Positions 13,615 through 19,208 of a stretch of 34,668 nucleotides of DNA are shown piece after piece. The translations under genes and the position numbers were made by a program. The notes under the pieces are model-generated. The model was not told where the DNA came from and did no database searches. It saw only the letters and a program-made list of their open reading frames with translations. Numbering within the stretch: the stretch's first letter is position 1; every line of letters starts with the position of its first letter. Origin of the DNA: Clostridia bacterium (lineage in GTDB: Bacteria > Bacillota > Clostridia > Oscillospirales > CAG-272); NCBI GenBank assembly GCA_017482465.1, contig JAFUMW010000182.1, positions 1 to 34,668 on the forward strand, read 5' to 3'.

Positions 13615-13664
13615 GCCCTCTCACCCAACTACGTCGGGAGCTCCCCAAAGGGGGGAGCCTTTTT
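13615..13664. repeat. Solo right arm (R) of the DUF559-associated repeat
   Basis: CCCTCTCACCCAACTACGTC, a hairpin (GGGAGCTCCCC-AAA-GGGGGGAGCC, imperfect) and a T-run directly follow ispE. It is the same as the right arms at 13753-13825, 14301-14348 and 14468-14520. It lacks its own left arm and probably serves as the ispE terminator. It is separated from the next unit by a GAAAGTAGATTTAAACTAACT spacer (one base over twenty shown in part) that recurs between units. Confidence 0.7.
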
Positions 13665-13685: not shown

Positions 13686-13825
13686 AAAAGCCTCTCCTAA
13701 TGGGAGAGGTGGCACGCGTCAGCGTGACGGAGAGGGAGAAAAATCCATGCATGAGCCCTCTCACCCAACTACGTCGGGATGCTCTCAAACGACCGCGAGC
13801 GGTCGATTAAAGGGGGAGCCTTTTT
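13686..13825. mobile_element. Gene-free inverted-repeat unit 1 (MITE-like)
   Basis: Left arm 13686-13736: AAAAGCCTCTCC-TAAT-GGGAGAGG, then a hairpin CACGC-GTCA-GCGTG and ACGGAGAGGG. A short centre AGAAAAATCCATGCAT follows. Right arm 13753-13825: CCCTCTCACCC...GGGGGAGCCTTTTT, with an extra GACCGC-GAGC-GGTC-type hairpin insertion. The outer ends are inverted copies of each other and match the ends of the DUF559-bearing unit, so this looks like an internally deleted version of it. No transposase is present. Confidence 0.65.
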
Positions 13826-13846
13826 GAAAGTTGATGCAAACTAAAT

Positions 13847-14348
13847 AAAAGCCTCTCCTTATGGGAGAGTGTGTCAAACAGTTTCTGCGAAACTGTGCTA
13901 AGCGTGACGAAGAGGGTAAAATGGAACGTGTACCAATACTAAAAAACAATAAACTATTAGAATATGCAAAAGACTTGAGAGCCAATATGACACCACAGGA
14001 AAAGCATCTGTGGTATGATTTTTTACAAAAGTATCCTGTCAAAATTTATAAACAGCGTATAATCGACAATTTTATTGCTGACTTCTACTGTTGCAAAGCT
14101 CGTCTTGTCATAGAGATCGACGGTGCTCATCATTATACAGCTGAAGGTAAAACTCACGATAGGCTCAGAACCGAAGCGATTGAACGATACGGCTTATATG
14201 TTTTGCGTTTCTCTGACAGTGATGTTGATTATCGCTTTGATCAAGTTTGCGAAAAAATCAATAACGTCATACAGACCCGAATTAACGAAAAGCCTTAGTT
14301 TTTCCCTCTCACCCAACTGCGTCGGGAGCTCTCCCATAGGGAGAGCCT
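13847..14348. mobile_element. Inverted-repeat unit carrying a DUF559 gene
   Basis: The left arm (13847-13917) begins AAAAGCCTCTCC-TTAT-GGGAGAG and ends GCGTGACGAAGAGGG, with an extra perfect hairpin ACAGTTTC-TGC-GAAACTGT (13878-13896) in place of the GC-rich hairpin of its neighbours. The DUF559 gene fills 13921-14298. The right arm (14301-14348) is CCCTCTCACCCAACTGCGTC...GGGAGAGCCT. The reverse complement of the right arm aligns with the left arm, so the gene lies between terminal inverted repeats. The T-A-rich junction sequence beside each unit recurs throughout the cluster. Mobility is inferred from this architecture and from gene-free copies on both sides. Confidence 0.6.
13921..14298 (+). 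CDS. DUF559 (Vsr-like) endonuclease domain protein
   Basis: A 125-residue single-domain protein. It has the DUF559 (PF04480) layout: LRANMTPQEKHLW near residues 19-31, then IADFYCCKARLVIEIDGAHH at 52-71, and EAIERYGLYVLRFSDSDV towards the end. Asp54, Glu65, Asp67 and His70/71 are candidate metal-binding residues of a PD-(D/E)XK/Vsr-like nuclease fold. Family members are annotated as endonuclease-domain proteins and have no established general function. The start at 13921 is chosen because AGAGGG, the inner end of the repeat arm, lies 4 nt upstream; the open frame to 13861 runs through the arm. The gene is visibly more A+T-rich than its neighbours, consistent with transfer. It is flanked by inverted arms and by gene-free copies of the same unit. 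Confidence 0.85.
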   Translation: MERVPILKNNKLLEYAKDLRANMTPQEKHLWYDFLQKYPVKIYKQRIIDNFIADFYCCKARLVIEIDGAHHYTAEGKTHDRLRTEAIERYGLYVLRFSDSDVDYRFDQVCEKINNVIQTRINEKP

Positions 14349-14372
14349 GTTAAAAGTAGATTTAAACTAACT

Positions 14373-14520
14373 AAAAGCCTCTCCTAATGGGAGAGGTGGC
14401 ACGCGTCAGCGTGACGGAGAGGGACGGAGAGGGACGGAGAGGGACGGAGAGGGAGAAAAATCCATGCATGAGCCCTCTCACCCAACTACGTCGGGAGCTC
14501 CCCCAATGGGGGAGCCTTTT
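14373..14520. mobile_element. Gene-free inverted-repeat unit 2 (MITE-like)
   Basis: The left arm from 14373 is nearly identical to 13686-13736, but its last ten bases are amplified (see 14413-14452). The centre AGAAAAATCCATGCAT equals that of unit 1. The right arm 14468-14520 ends GGGGGAGCCTTTT. Unit 2 and unit 1 bracket the DUF559 unit in the same orientation, giving a tandem L-R, L-gene-R, L-R series. Confidence 0.65.
14413..14452. repeat. Tandem repeat of a 10-bp unit, four copies
   Basis: GACGGAGAGG is repeated four times head to tail within the left arm of unit 2. The equivalent arm at 13686-13736 has one copy. Replication slippage is the simple explanation. Confidence 0.9.
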
Positions 14521-14570
14521 GAAAGTAGATTCAAACTAACTAAAAGCCTCCCCCCCGTCAGGTGGAGGCA

Positions 14571-14604
14571 AAAAACAGGCGATGCCACGGCATCGCCTGT
14601 TTTT
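14571..14604. terminator. Bidirectional terminator at the rlmB-like gene end
   Basis: AAAAACAGGCGATGCC (14571-14586) pairs with GGCATCGCCTGTTTT (14589-14604). On the minus strand it closes the methyltransferase operon, and its arm overlaps the TAA stop (14605-14603). It directly follows a truncated left arm of the repeat family (14541-14569). Confidence 0.88.
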
Positions 14605-15376
14605 AGTTTCTGTTATTTCTTAACACCTCGAATGCGAGAATACTTGCCGCGGAGGCTGCCGACAGCGCCTGCGGAAAATCACGCCCGTAATCAAGCCTTA
14701 CTATCTCGTCCGCGTTTTCGATAAGCGACTTCGACAGACCGCGCTTTTCACCGCCTACGCATAAAAGTATGGGCTTGTTTAGCTTGGCATCATACACCGA
14801 TACAGAATTTTCAAGCTCGGCGCATACCACCCTGTATCCCGCCGACTTGAACACCCTTGCCGCATCATCCGCGCTTGCCGTGAATATCCGTACCTGCTCG
14901 CTCGCGCCCGCCGACGCACGGCATACAACGCCCGCCGCACTCATCCAGTTGCGCTCTGGCAGTATTACTCCGTCAACACCCGCGGCGTACAAAGAGCGCA
15001 TCGCGTAGCCGAAATTGTACGGATCTTCAATACCGTCAAGCATCATGTAAAAGCCGCCCGAGACAAGCCTTTCCTCTGATAAGGAAGGGAAGTGCCGCTC
15101 TGTGGCGTAGACGATCACACCGCCGTGACTTGTACCGATAGCGATCTCTTCGATCGCCTCGCTGTCAACCGCTTCAAGCACAAAACCGTGCTTGTACGAC
15201 ATCGCCTTGATATACGACAAATGCCCGGCAAGCTTTTTTGCGCGTGACTTGTCATATATGACCTTTTCTATTTTTCTGTCGGATATTCCCGACTCAATGC
15301 CCGCTATCAGTGCGCGGAAGGATACCATTCCCTCAAATACATTCGAGTCGGCAAAGCGTGATTCCTCTCGCTTCAT
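14603..15376 (-). CDS. SpoU/TrmH family RNA 2'-O-methyltransferase
   Basis: A 257-residue SPOUT-class methyltransferase that transfers methyl from S-adenosylmethionine to a ribose 2'-OH of rRNA or tRNA. A substrate-binding N-terminal domain of about 100 residues is followed by the SPOUT domain: motif 1 LDGIEDPYNFGYAMRSLYAAG, given here for its Asn, Gly and Arg; motif 2 LCVGGEKRGLS; and motif 3 QALSAASAASILAFEVLR, in which the common SLNVS is changed to ALSAAS. RlmB (23S G2251) or a TrmH-like target is possible; I cannot decide. The start at 15376 is chosen because it overlaps the thyX stop by ATGA; the open frame to 15541 lies entirely inside thyX. It is the last gene of the minus-strand operon. 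Confidence 0.87.
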   Translation of the reverse strand: MKREESRFADSNVFEGMVSFRALIAGIESGISDRKIEKVIYDKSRAKKLAGHLSYIKAMSYKHGFVLEAVDSEAIEEIAIGTSHGGVIVYATERHFPSLSEERLVSGGFYMMLDGIEDPYNFGYAMRSLYAAGVDGVILPERNWMSAAGVVCRASAGASEQVRIFTASADDAARVFKSAGYRVVCAELENSVSVYDAKLNKPILLCVGGEKRGLSKSLIENADEIVRLDYGRDFPQALSAASAASILAFEVLRNNRN

Positions 15377-16134
15377 TTCGTGAAACCGAGCTCGCGCCTT
15401 ACTTCGTCGGGCTTTTTGCAGGAATACGAGCCCTCCTGACACTTGCCTCGCACGCATCCGGGTCCTGCCTTTGCAAACAGCAGAGGAGCAGCCTCGCGTA
15501 CAAGCTTGAGCATCTCTACCGCAAGCTCGCGTATCTCCCACTGTGCGCGTCTGCAGCAGCGCAGAGCAAAGAAATTGTGAAGTGAGCGCACATTCATGGT
15601 CATGATGATCTTGGTGTCGCAGGAGTTGGGAAGCACAAAGCGAGCGTCCTCGTTCGCCTTCTTTTCAGCCATTCTGCGGGCTTCCTTTTCGTCTATACCC
15701 TCGTCTGTAAAGCTCTTGAGGTGCTTTTCAATAAGTAAAGCTCTGAGACTCTCATAGTGAGCCGCATCCTCTTCCATCGCACGGATGTATTCTTCCTTTG
15801 CCTCGGGTATCGAAGCTATCTCGGGAGGCATGATGTATTCAAACGAGCTCTTGTCAACATAGCGCTGGCTCTGCACCGAGAAGGACGCGATCCTGTGGCG
15901 TGTGAGCTGTGCGAGAAGCGCACGCGATACGCCCTCGATACCGAAGGTGAAGCTTGCGTGCTCGATCGGACTCGAATGACCGAGATCGTTCAGTAATGTA
16001 AGAAAGGACTCGACCTTGTCGGGGGTAAGATTATCCATAAGTGTGGGAATATCGCTTCTTGAGTAGCAAAGCTTTGCCGCGGACGCGACGAGCTTGTCCG
16101 CGTCGGGGGTATATGTGAGAAGAGTAACAGTCAT
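15373..16134 (-). CDS. thyX: Flavin-dependent thymidylate synthase ThyX
   Basis: Makes dTMP from dUMP using methylene-tetrahydrofolate, FAD and NADPH. The ThyX motif RHR-X7-S is exact: Arg79-His80-Arg81 and Ser89, within RHRIASFSVQSQRY. HSSPIEHASFTF precedes it, and NVRSLHNFFALRCCRRAQWEIRELA, known from the family's nucleotide-binding helix, lies near residues 180-205. The length of 253 residues is usual. The gene starts 5 nt after the glycosyltransferase stop and overlaps the methyltransferase start by ATGA, so it is in the middle of a tight operon. ThyX is the common alternative to ThyA in anaerobes; no thyA or folA is in the window. Confidence 0.96.
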   Translation of the reverse strand: MTVTLLTYTPDADKLVASAAKLCYSRSDIPTLMDNLTPDKVESFLTLLNDLGHSSPIEHASFTFGIEGVSRALLAQLTRHRIASFSVQSQRYVDKSSFEYIMPPEIASIPEAKEEYIRAMEEDAAHYESLRALLIEKHLKSFTDEGIDEKEARRMAEKKANEDARFVLPNSCDTKIIMTMNVRSLHNFFALRCCRRAQWEIRELAVEMLKLVREAAPLLFAKAGPGCVRGKCQEGSYSCKKPDEVRRELGFTK

Positions 16135-17213: not shown

Positions 17214-19208
17214 TTATATGCCGCCAAGCTGTTCTCTTATCTGTAAGGCAAAGTAAAGCGCAGTGTTCTGATCGTTTGACCAGACGTCATAGAATCTGCC
17301 GCGCTTGCCGTTTACCTTGTAGGGATAGATGTACGCACAGCTGCCGCTTCCGTCGCTGAAATAATTGCTTAAACAGTTTCTGACGCACGCTTTCGCCTTG
17401 TCGATGTATTCCTCGTTATTTGACGCGACACCGTAATCGGCAAAAGATCTTGCGGTAAGACAGCTCCAATAATGCGGCATAGTGTCGCCGAACTGCATAG
17501 CCTTTCCAAACCAGAAGCCGTCCCAATACCGCACAGGTATCTCGTTTAGACGATGGCTTGGCTGCTTTCCGTCAAAACGCTCTAAAAGCTCTACATGCAG
17601 AGCCGCCGCATCTATGTACGAGTCCTTACCCGTAAGTAATTTCATTTCCGAAATAAAGGTAGCCGCGGGAGAGACGATCGTCTGCTCGTAATTTACTTCG
17701 TGAGCAGGGAAGCTTGTCCCGATCTTTACCATATTGTCTACGTGTATCTTGAATTTGTCAAAAAGCTTTTCGGCATCATCTTTTAAGCCAGCGTGCCTAA
17801 GGGCGTCCACGCATTTTTTCGGCGAAAAGCCGTTTGGATAGAAGTGATCGCCGCCATGCTCGTAATAAAAATCGAAAATTTTGATTATTTCCGAAAGATA
17901 CCTTTTCTCGCCTGTAAGGTAATATACCTCAACAAAGAGATCTGCGACCCACGGCGCGTCGTACAGCCGTATCCTGGGCTGATCTTTGCCTATTGACGGG
18001 TAGACCCTGCCAATGTTCTCGTCATAAAATTCCCTGTATAAGAAATCGAGATATTTATTTAGCGCCCTTTTGTACCTGTCGTTTGGATGGTCTTGCAAGT
18101 ATTTTGTGAGAAGAAGCGCCATTCCGATGCGCTCGTGACACGCGTTGTGATCGGGAATGGTGTCGTCGTATATAAGATGCTTTTCTTCGCAGTCGTATAT
18201 AAGAAACGCCCCGTCAAGATGACTGCCCTCTCTGTGGTACTGTTGCTTGTCAACTATGAAATCCACCGTTCTTTCAACCAAACTGTCAAGCTCGGGCGAC
18301 ACGAAAAAGTCGGCATGTGTACGAATACCGTTTATCTCAATATCGAAGCGATGCTCACCGATGCGCTTTGGCAAACAGCTTATATTAACACACCCGTTTT
18401 CAAGCGAATACGGCAGGCTTGTGCCGTCGAGAGCGATCTTTATATCCTTTGGTGCGGTGTGCGTGTACAGCGAAAACTCGATGCTTTCGTTTTCAAAAAA
18501 TGTGAAGTATTCAGCCGACACCTCAATGTGAGAGTCATACTCCTTTAATATGCGGATAAAATCCTCTCTTCCGGTGTGCCAGAAAAGCTCCCATTCGAGA
18601 ATATATTCTTCTTTGGGTAAAAGCTCTGTGTGAGCCGGATTGAAGATAAATCTGCCGCGGTCATTTGAGTCAACGCCCTCCTGACTGTAGCTGTCAAGCG
18701 CACCCTTAGTAAGCACAAGACCGAGGTTTATCTCAGACGGCCCCATTTTAAGAGCGCAGACATTTGACACGTTTTTCCCGCACCAGATATGCGTGTTGCA
18801 CCTGTTTGTCATACAGACATCGGCGGAGGAGTACCTGTCGTCAAACGGGAGAGTGATACCGAAATTGTCCGGCTCGATAAATATATCGTAATCGGTGGCG
18901 TTGCGGATCGTGTAGCGCTCGACGAGCCTGTCGTTATCCTTGAAAAAGCGCTCGACTCTGACGTCGACCATGCCGTTTGAGTATTCGGCAGACATACGCT
19001 TGTCTTCAAGCCTTACGTCCTTTACCGTCATATGGGTGATACGCTCCTTGTAGTCAAGCCAAATGCCGTCGTAAACGTCGCATTTGATCTCCCCCCATTT
19101 TGCATCAGGCCGGCAAAAATTCATTTTGTATACGTCGTTTATATTCGAGATACTTGTCAAAGTGCCGCTCTCGCTGTCGACCACTATGTCAAAGACACTG
19201 TTTTTCAT
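17214..19208 (-). CDS. Six-hairpin glycosidase-like protein
   Basis: A 664-residue protein without signal peptide. The N-terminal ~310 residues look like beta-sandwich domains (repeated short strands, IEPDNFGITLPFDDRYS, FFENESIEFSLYTHTAP). The C-terminal ~350 residues are helical with the (alpha/alpha)6 toroid look of six-hairpin glycosidases: HERIGMALLLTKYLQDHP, RLYDAPWVADLFVEVYYLTGEKRY, FYYEHGGDHFYPNG, MPHYWSCLTARSFADYG, YDVWSNDQNTALYFAL. Acidic residues in these helices could be catalytic, but I cannot place it in a GH or PL family. It has its own promoter (19270-19242) and no partner gene. Cytoplasmic action on an imported oligosaccharide is inferred. Confidence 0.7.
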   Translation of the reverse strand: MKNSVFDIVVDSESGTLTSISNINDVYKMNFCRPDAKWGEIKCDVYDGIWLDYKERITHMTVKDVRLEDKRMSAEYSNGMVDVRVERFFKDNDRLVERYTIRNATDYDIFIEPDNFGITLPFDDRYSSADVCMTNRCNTHIWCGKNVSNVCALKMGPSEINLGLVLTKGALDSYSQEGVDSNDRGRFIFNPAHTELLPKEEYILEWELFWHTGREDFIRILKEYDSHIEVSAEYFTFFENESIEFSLYTHTAPKDIKIALDGTSLPYSLENGCVNISCLPKRIGEHRFDIEINGIRTHADFFVSPELDSLVERTVDFIVDKQQYHREGSHLDGAFLIYDCEEKHLIYDDTIPDHNACHERIGMALLLTKYLQDHPNDRYKRALNKYLDFLYREFYDENIGRVYPSIGKDQPRIRLYDAPWVADLFVEVYYLTGEKRYLSEIIKIFDFYYEHGGDHFYPNGFSPKKCVDALRHAGLKDDAEKLFDKFKIHVDNMVKIGTSFPAHEVNYEQTIVSPAATFISEMKLLTGKDSYIDAAALHVELLERFDGKQPSHRLNEIPVRYWDGFWFGKAMQFGDTMPHYWSCLTARSFADYGVASNNEEYIDKAKACVRNCLSNYFSDGSGSCAYIYPYKVNGKRGRFYDVWSNDQNTALYFALQIREQLGGI

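Follow-up and report, generated by a model that had tools for sequence, protein, structure and literature searches.

How a single DUF559 gene comes to lie between inverted repeats, and whether gene and repeats spread as one unit, is the question raised by a locus in the window (the whole stretch of Clostridia DNA that was analysed, 34,668 nucleotides in length). DUF559 is a widespread family of unknown function, and the initial annotation had proposed that this member of it, together with the repeats, is a minimal mobile element. The comparisons described here lead to a similar reading, in which the locus probably holds a mobile element of ~505 bp, with two inverted arms of the triplex class placed around one Vsr-like nuclease gene in a self-spreading partnership.

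The array in the window and its nuclease

The gene and its arms are part of an array that extends from 13616 to ~14567 and holds, in order, an orphan right arm, a gene-less unit, the gene-bearing unit (13847-14351, ~505 bp), a second gene-less unit and a partial arm. The neighbours of the array are housekeeping genes, namely a GHMP kinase/IspE-like gene and a SpoU methylase gene. The features are as follows:

13616..13663, + strand: orphan right-type arm (CCCTCTCACCCAACTACGTCGGGAGCTCCCC..GGGGGGAGCCTTTTT) at the array edge, of family D2 and 96% to the query arm
13686..13824, + strand: gene-less unit 1, with left arm 13686-13737, a spacer of ~19 nt and right arm 13757-13824
13847..13917, + strand: left arm of the gene-bearing unit, with hairpin GCCTCTCC-TTAT-GGGAGAG, a diverged second hairpin and mirror tail GAAGAGGG
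13921..14298, + strand: DUF559 (PF04480) gene for a predicted Vsr-like PD-(D/E)XK nuclease, from profile match, conserved residues, AF2 model and PDB match
14304..14351, + strand: right arm of the gene-bearing unit, with reverse complement AGGCTCTCCC..GGGAGAGCTCCCGACGCAGTTGGGTGAGAGGG; families I1 and D2
14373..14520, + strand: gene-less unit 2, with left arm 14373-14424, a spacer and right arm 14473-14520
14541..14567, + strand: partial arm (hairpin GCCTCCCCCCCGTCAGGTGGAGGC), present too in the gene-less orthologous locus of a congeneric genome (G144)

The description of the gene as enclosed by inverted arms was upheld, with 13846-13869 and 14329-14352 being 88% complementary over 24 nt, but the arms are not confined to the edges of the gene, a point that the initial annotation missed, and they recur around it as the array. 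The left arms of the two gene-less units are 99% identical; the right arm of the first (13757-13824) has an extra hairpin, and in the second a 10-bp repeat of the left-arm tail (GGACGGAGAG) extends to 14454. The arm-spacer-arm plan of the first is common to the gene-less units of relatives. In the gene-bearing unit, ATG 13921, directly 3' of the left arm, is the likely start of DUF559, with an alternative ORF opening at 13861, and the left-arm mirror tail occupies the expected Shine-Dalgarno position of the gene. The gene is also A+T-rich, as had been observed (GC 36.8% vs 49.1% for the window), and neither the unit nor any of the window ORFs that were scanned yielded a transposase.

Some further observations concern the surroundings. 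The listed start of the SpoU ORF (14603-15541, - strand) is over-long, as relatives begin near MKREESRF, and stop-codon recoding in the genus was considered and rejected, the in-frame TGAs of two congeneric SpoU genes (G044 and G144) falling upstream of the true start in an over-long ORF. An ORF of 664 aa at 17214-19208 (- strand) had no Pfam match at E 0.001. The same MAG contains a second DUF559 gene (L001:358-705, - strand), which has arms of another subtype (GCCTTCTCC..GGAGAAGG..GGATGAGG) on its 3' side only and adjoins a gene-less unit.

By profile search the window protein belongs to DUF559/PF04480, with 90 bits against a gathering cut-off of 20.6 (E 1.1e-25). Asp54, Glu65 and Asp67, earlier named as candidate nuclease residues, proved to be conserved among 21 relatives, in which D54 and D67 are invariant and E65 near-invariant; H71 is likewise invariant. 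The AF2 model of the protein (pLDDT 91) had as its best Foldseek match the catalytic domain of the homing endonuclease I-Bth0305I (3r3p, E 2.3e-5), followed by the DUF559 protein NGO0050 (3hrl) and then by Vsr (1cw0/1vsr), and the sequence profile agrees with this fold (3hrl, E 4e-23; 3r3p, E 3.6e-5). With the core fold and the acidic residues both present in the model, the protein is a predicted nuclease of the PD-(D/E)XK, Vsr-like fold. Only DUF559 and its relatives match the window protein, and no HUH domain was found in it. The E. coli family member YcjD had been placed in the PD-(D/E)XK superfamily by 2005 (PMC1189080).

Recurrence of the arms at DUF559 genes and their repeat class

In the window's bacterial family DUF559 is present in a patchy manner, in 140/295 genomes, and examination of these relatives bore out the annotated arrangement, since arms at DUF559 edges are strongly enriched over controls. 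A flank inverted-repeat score of at least 30 was obtained for 56% of 91 same-family DUF559 loci and for 0/168 control segments of the same size, and a second Clostridia set, overlapping the first in a few contigs, gave 57% of 74 loci and 0.7% of 401 controls; with such control values, chance pairing of the arms is excluded. An arm-type palindrome lies within 300 bp of DUF559 at 83/92 and 70/76 Clostridia loci, leaving ~10% of them without one at that distance. Pyrimidine-purine palindromes were present on both sides of the gene at 47/92, 40/76, 19/25 and 29/40 DUF559 loci and in 1/32, 0/87 and 0/37 control gene blocks, these values depending on a palindrome threshold that is arbitrary but fixed across sets, on control blocks that are few in some sets, and on loci that are not independent and come mostly from MAGs.

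The association extends to other phyla. DUF559 was found in 105/146 genomes of Cyanobacteriota, in which flank inverted repeats accompany 28/40 large-genome and 21/25 small-genome loci vs 3/118 controls, and arm-like palindromes were also seen beside DUF559 in E. coli, Deinococcus, Sinorhizobium, Azospirillum, Sphingomonas, Neisseria and Photobacterium. Among the named loci, a small set, 8/10 have a palindrome on either side. Stand-alone GIY-YIG genes in the window's bacterial family (L376, L378, L384) are also bordered by inverted repeats, which are of other families (GTCATTGCGAG...GGCAATCTC and CGTCATCCTCGAGCG...GGATCTC), and a second nuclease family may be paired there with a second repeat family.

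Across loci, an arm has first a hairpin whose 5' stem is made of pyrimidines and whose 3' stem is made of purines, next, in most cases, a second hairpin of free sequence, and then a purine tail mirroring the purine stem of the first hairpin; CCTCCC-loop-GGGAGG-TG-GCACGC-loop-GCGTGAC-GGAGGG is one example. The difference between left and right arms tends to follow a fixed pattern (GCC..GG/..GGAGG vs GGC..GC/..TGAGG). A mirror copy of the purine stem occurs at most 60 nt to the 3' side of 41-48% of strand-oriented hairpins, for which the ceiling is ~50% because each palindrome is counted on both strands, and to the 5' side of 10-14%. The orientation of the arms relative to the gene differs between lineages, as the mirror tail lies toward the gene in Clostridia and most Cyanobacteria, and outward in the small-genome gut Cyanobacteriota and E. 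coli. In one nuclease clade (L019, L038, L042, L063), a conserved tail of ~110 bp with two further hairpins comes after the right arm and travels as part of the unit, and NUDIX-like ORFs are often located upstream.

With pyrimidine stem, purine stem and mirror block all present, the arms by their base pattern belong to the intrastrand-triplex (BoxC/PIT/TM) repeat class. BoxC, then PIT elements and then TMECO are the successive names given to the E. coli intrastrand-triplex motifs, and knowledge of triplex/BoxC repeats, which are abundant in bacteria generally and have been linked to genome instability, goes back to the 1990s (PMC4666352). Holder et al. described 23 TMECO copies in MG1655, with more variable surroundings, and inverted pairs that always join type A with type B; in vitro, the isolated strand folds as a triplex and the duplex does not. 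No mobility functions were found near TMECO by these authors, who left origin and mechanism open (PMC4666352). The initial annotation knew of no formal description of such a pairing. The arm class itself was already known as BoxC/PIT/triplex (PMC4666352). A search of open-licence PMC text yielded no paper that connects DUF559, COG2852 or YcjD with repeats, and none that connects NGO0050 or YcjD with repeats or mobility.

The TMECO pattern sensu stricto (CCCTCNCCC-N3-6-GGGNGAGGG-N3-GGGNGAGGG) is present exactly at 7/25 small-genome Cyanobacteriota DUF559 loci, among them the arms carried within priA of gut Cyanobacteriota, and at the 3' arm of E. coli ycjD (L182), and is absent from the DUF559 loci of Clostridia (the window's group) and of large Cyanobacteria. 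As a universal definition of the arms the exact pattern fails in the latter two groups, and the broader plan of palindrome plus mirror tail was therefore used. No Rfam family scored above gathering for the arms.

The arms also vary in step with the nuclease. Over 132 Clostridia loci, arm similarity and protein similarity between genomes are correlated (Mantel r=0.70, p<=0.0005, with none of 2000 permutations near the observed r), and in 31/34 cases the arms are closer to those of the nearest DUF559 relative in another genome than to those beside a divergent DUF559 of their own genome. The arms apparently co-diverge with the nuclease and not with the host genome, which shows, at the level of sequence comparison, that arms and nuclease are inherited together; by itself, co-divergence is no demonstration of recognition.

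Mobility, gene-less copies and transfer

Among 240 locus pairs with protein similarity >0.8, neither outer flank is common in 166, and both outer flanks are common in only 4, which are the same contigs fetched twice. At the window locus, from the IspE-like kinase gene to the SpoU gene, congeneric genomes are empty (G044), contain a gene-less unit (G144) or contain the gene-bearing array (G000), so that the unit is not fixed at its orthologous site and the annotated mobility withstood this comparison. Gene-less units mostly consist of a right arm, ~25 nt and a left arm, with the gene replacing the spacer in the full unit. A 22-nt arm core (GGCTCCCTTGTGTAAAGGGAGC) is found in 93/295 genomes, in up to 34 exact copies each, and DUF559 is present in 32/41 genomes with at least three exact cores vs 108/254 others (p=3e-5), the genome-wide copy counts resting on pattern and BLAST searches. 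Together, these comparisons show a mobile unit, made up of the gene and its own arms, with gene-less derivatives dispersed in the manner of REPINs or MITEs.

In small-genome Cyanobacteriota the unit is located in frame in priA (L237, L239, L241, L254), just before the Walker A motif; an M14 peptidase (L242) also holds an in-frame DUF559 unit, and another in-frame unit is found at L234, the names priA and M14 peptidase being read from the translated flanks. The in-frame arms translate as PSPQPSPAGGEG / PLPLRERVGVRGE-like peptides, and no splicing domain was seen at the units in priA and the peptidase. Related priA alleles are empty, full or one-arm scars, and the full ones lie scattered over the PriA tree (4 changes for 4 rows). 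Between two species with full alleles (G303 and G425), identity is 93-100% across the unit and the adjoining linker and ~83% in the remaining priA, the signature of a recent horizontal transfer in which some flanking sequence accompanied the unit, of the kind that homing would produce; in another pair of full alleles, conservation is lower in the unit than in the sequence around it. No target-site duplication is visible at priA, where the allele pairs compared are diverged, and neither a target-site duplication nor a clear target consensus was found in the compared loci generally.

These alleles bear on whether the arms merely serve the gene. DUF559 could be a repair or defence nuclease of use to the host, with arms acting only as its ribosome-binding site, terminator and mRNA-stabilising hairpins, and for this can be cited an SD-like GGAG/GAGG before the start in 58/85 loci, a T-run after the right hairpin in 21/85, and weak PADLOC similarities of DUF559 to restriction nucleases. 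Such a role is very improbable in view of the dispersed gene-less copies, the empty and gene-less alleles, the patchy presence of the gene, the in-frame insertions in priA and peptidase, and neighbours that are unrelated. The repeats could instead have spread by another route, through an unidentified enzyme, slippage or template switching, and DUF559 have been captured between two of them as a passenger at a hot-spot. Repeats do exist in genomes where DUF559 was not detected (G083 has 24 exact arm copies and no DUF559 found, in a set of incomplete MAGs), triplex repeats are themselves unstable (PMC4666352), and cutting of the arms by the nuclease is something that we infer. Capture is nonetheless unlikely, as one gene family has come to lie between subtype-specific arms in many lineages independently, and as ParE toxin genes from the window's bacterial family, which are likewise small and patchy, have an arm-type palindrome within 300 bp in 0/26 cases. 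Genomes with DUF559 also carry more repeats, both in the Clostridia family and in E. coli.

For E. coli, an even sample of 60 genomes has 14-29 BoxC-like places (median 20) in the 37 genomes with ycjD and 1-19 (median 4) in the 23 without it, a correlation that is confounded by phylogroup and based on counts that ignore strain relatedness. Both K-12 and BL21 carry ycjD and BoxC copies. The arms of E. coli ycjD are only on its 3' side, and the gene may be a fossil. In the K-12 ycjD-fabI interval (L192:2096-2817), ycjD is followed by a further, partial copy of its own 3' end together with arms, and in strain CUPF09 the stretch between two copies of the ycjD 3' end is deleted. A simple empty site for ycjD was considered and rejected, as strains lacking the gene carry the eef efflux operon there (PMC12817139), with no clean insertion junction.

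Proposed mechanism and relation to known systems

Taking the phyla together, it seems on balance that DUF559 and BoxC-like triplex repeats constitute an undescribed, transposase-free class of element in at least four phyla (Bacillota, Cyanobacteriota, Pseudomonadota and Deinococcota), with a Vsr-like nuclease as the sole protein and triplex-forming arms as the ends; E. coli BoxC would then be its non-autonomous residue and ycjD the surviving partner. The nuclease of such an element would recognise its own arm class, either as double-stranded DNA or as a folded single strand exposed at replication, and would nick or cut DNA at arms or at its targets. The break could then receive, through host repair or replication, a copy of the whole unit or of its arms only. 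If arms are already present in the target, they would supply homology, and a gene-less unit might in this way gain or lose the gene by homing-like conversion, with gene-less copies being mobilised in trans. The nuclease fold, the priA transfer and the series of empty, gene-less and full loci speak for homing-like conversion; what speaks for single-strand transposition is that the ends are hairpins and the sites non-homologous. We know of no unaided way for a single-domain nuclease to move DNA to non-homologous sites.

Single-strand transposition, which concerns the mechanism only, would have the nuclease act on folded lagging-strand arms and move the single-stranded unit by peel-and-paste, as IS200/IS605 TnpA does, without homologous repair. 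It accords with arms that are hairpins with left/right asymmetry, with TMECO folding as single-stranded but not double-stranded DNA and in A-with-B inverted pairs (PMC4666352), and with units that reach non-homologous sites. The transfer within priA together with flanks, however, resembles homing. The enzyme, moreover, is of predicted PD-(D/E)XK/Vsr fold and not HUH, and since enzymes of the former kind are not expected to form a covalent intermediate for rejoining strands, this route is possible but rather doubtful.

DUF559 would be the first candidate partner gene for BoxC, a long-known orphan repeat of E. coli, and the pairing answers part of two questions, one being the spread of triplex repeats and the other the function of DUF559; the rise and spread of these repeats has been stated as unanswered (PMC4666352). 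Should the nuclease act on the arms, it would be a compact natural enzyme for structured DNA and would provide a third enzymatic route, beside HUH and DDE, to selfish bacterial repeats.

Among known systems, the BoxC/PIT/TMECO repeats share with the arms a pyrimidine stem, a purine stem and a mirror purine tail, as well as intergenic location and unequal inverted pairs (A+B resembling left and right arms); they differ in having been described without a partner gene (PMC4666352), and the Clostridia arms have a hairpin as the second loop. The initial analogies with REP sequences and their RAYT partners and with Vsr-like homing endonucleases fit the gene-less copies, the I-Bth0305I match and the priA transfer with flanks. 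Like REPIN/RAYT systems, the unit has dispersed inverted palindrome pairs, a nuclease gene flanked by the same palindromes and non-autonomous copies, but a Vsr-like PD-(D/E)XK fold takes the place of the Y1 HUH transposase, and a triplex tail that of the GTAG/CGTC tag. The EDxHD homing endonuclease I-Bth0305I (3r3p) is the closest solved fold besides a DUF559 protein, and homing endonuclease genes resemble the unit in its transfer at one priA site with flanking sequence; unlike them, it is not in an intron or intein, occupies many non-homologous sites, and has its own terminal repeats and gene-less derivatives. NGO0050 (PDB 3hrl) and E. coli YcjD are members of the same DUF559 family. The MITEs of DDE insertion sequences are analogous as gene-less terminal-repeat copies mobilised in trans, whereas the unit has no DDE transposase, no target-site duplication that could be seen, and structured multi-hairpin arms. 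The element is most likely a selfish nuclease-plus-repeat that works like REPIN/RAYT systems or homing genes and belongs to neither.
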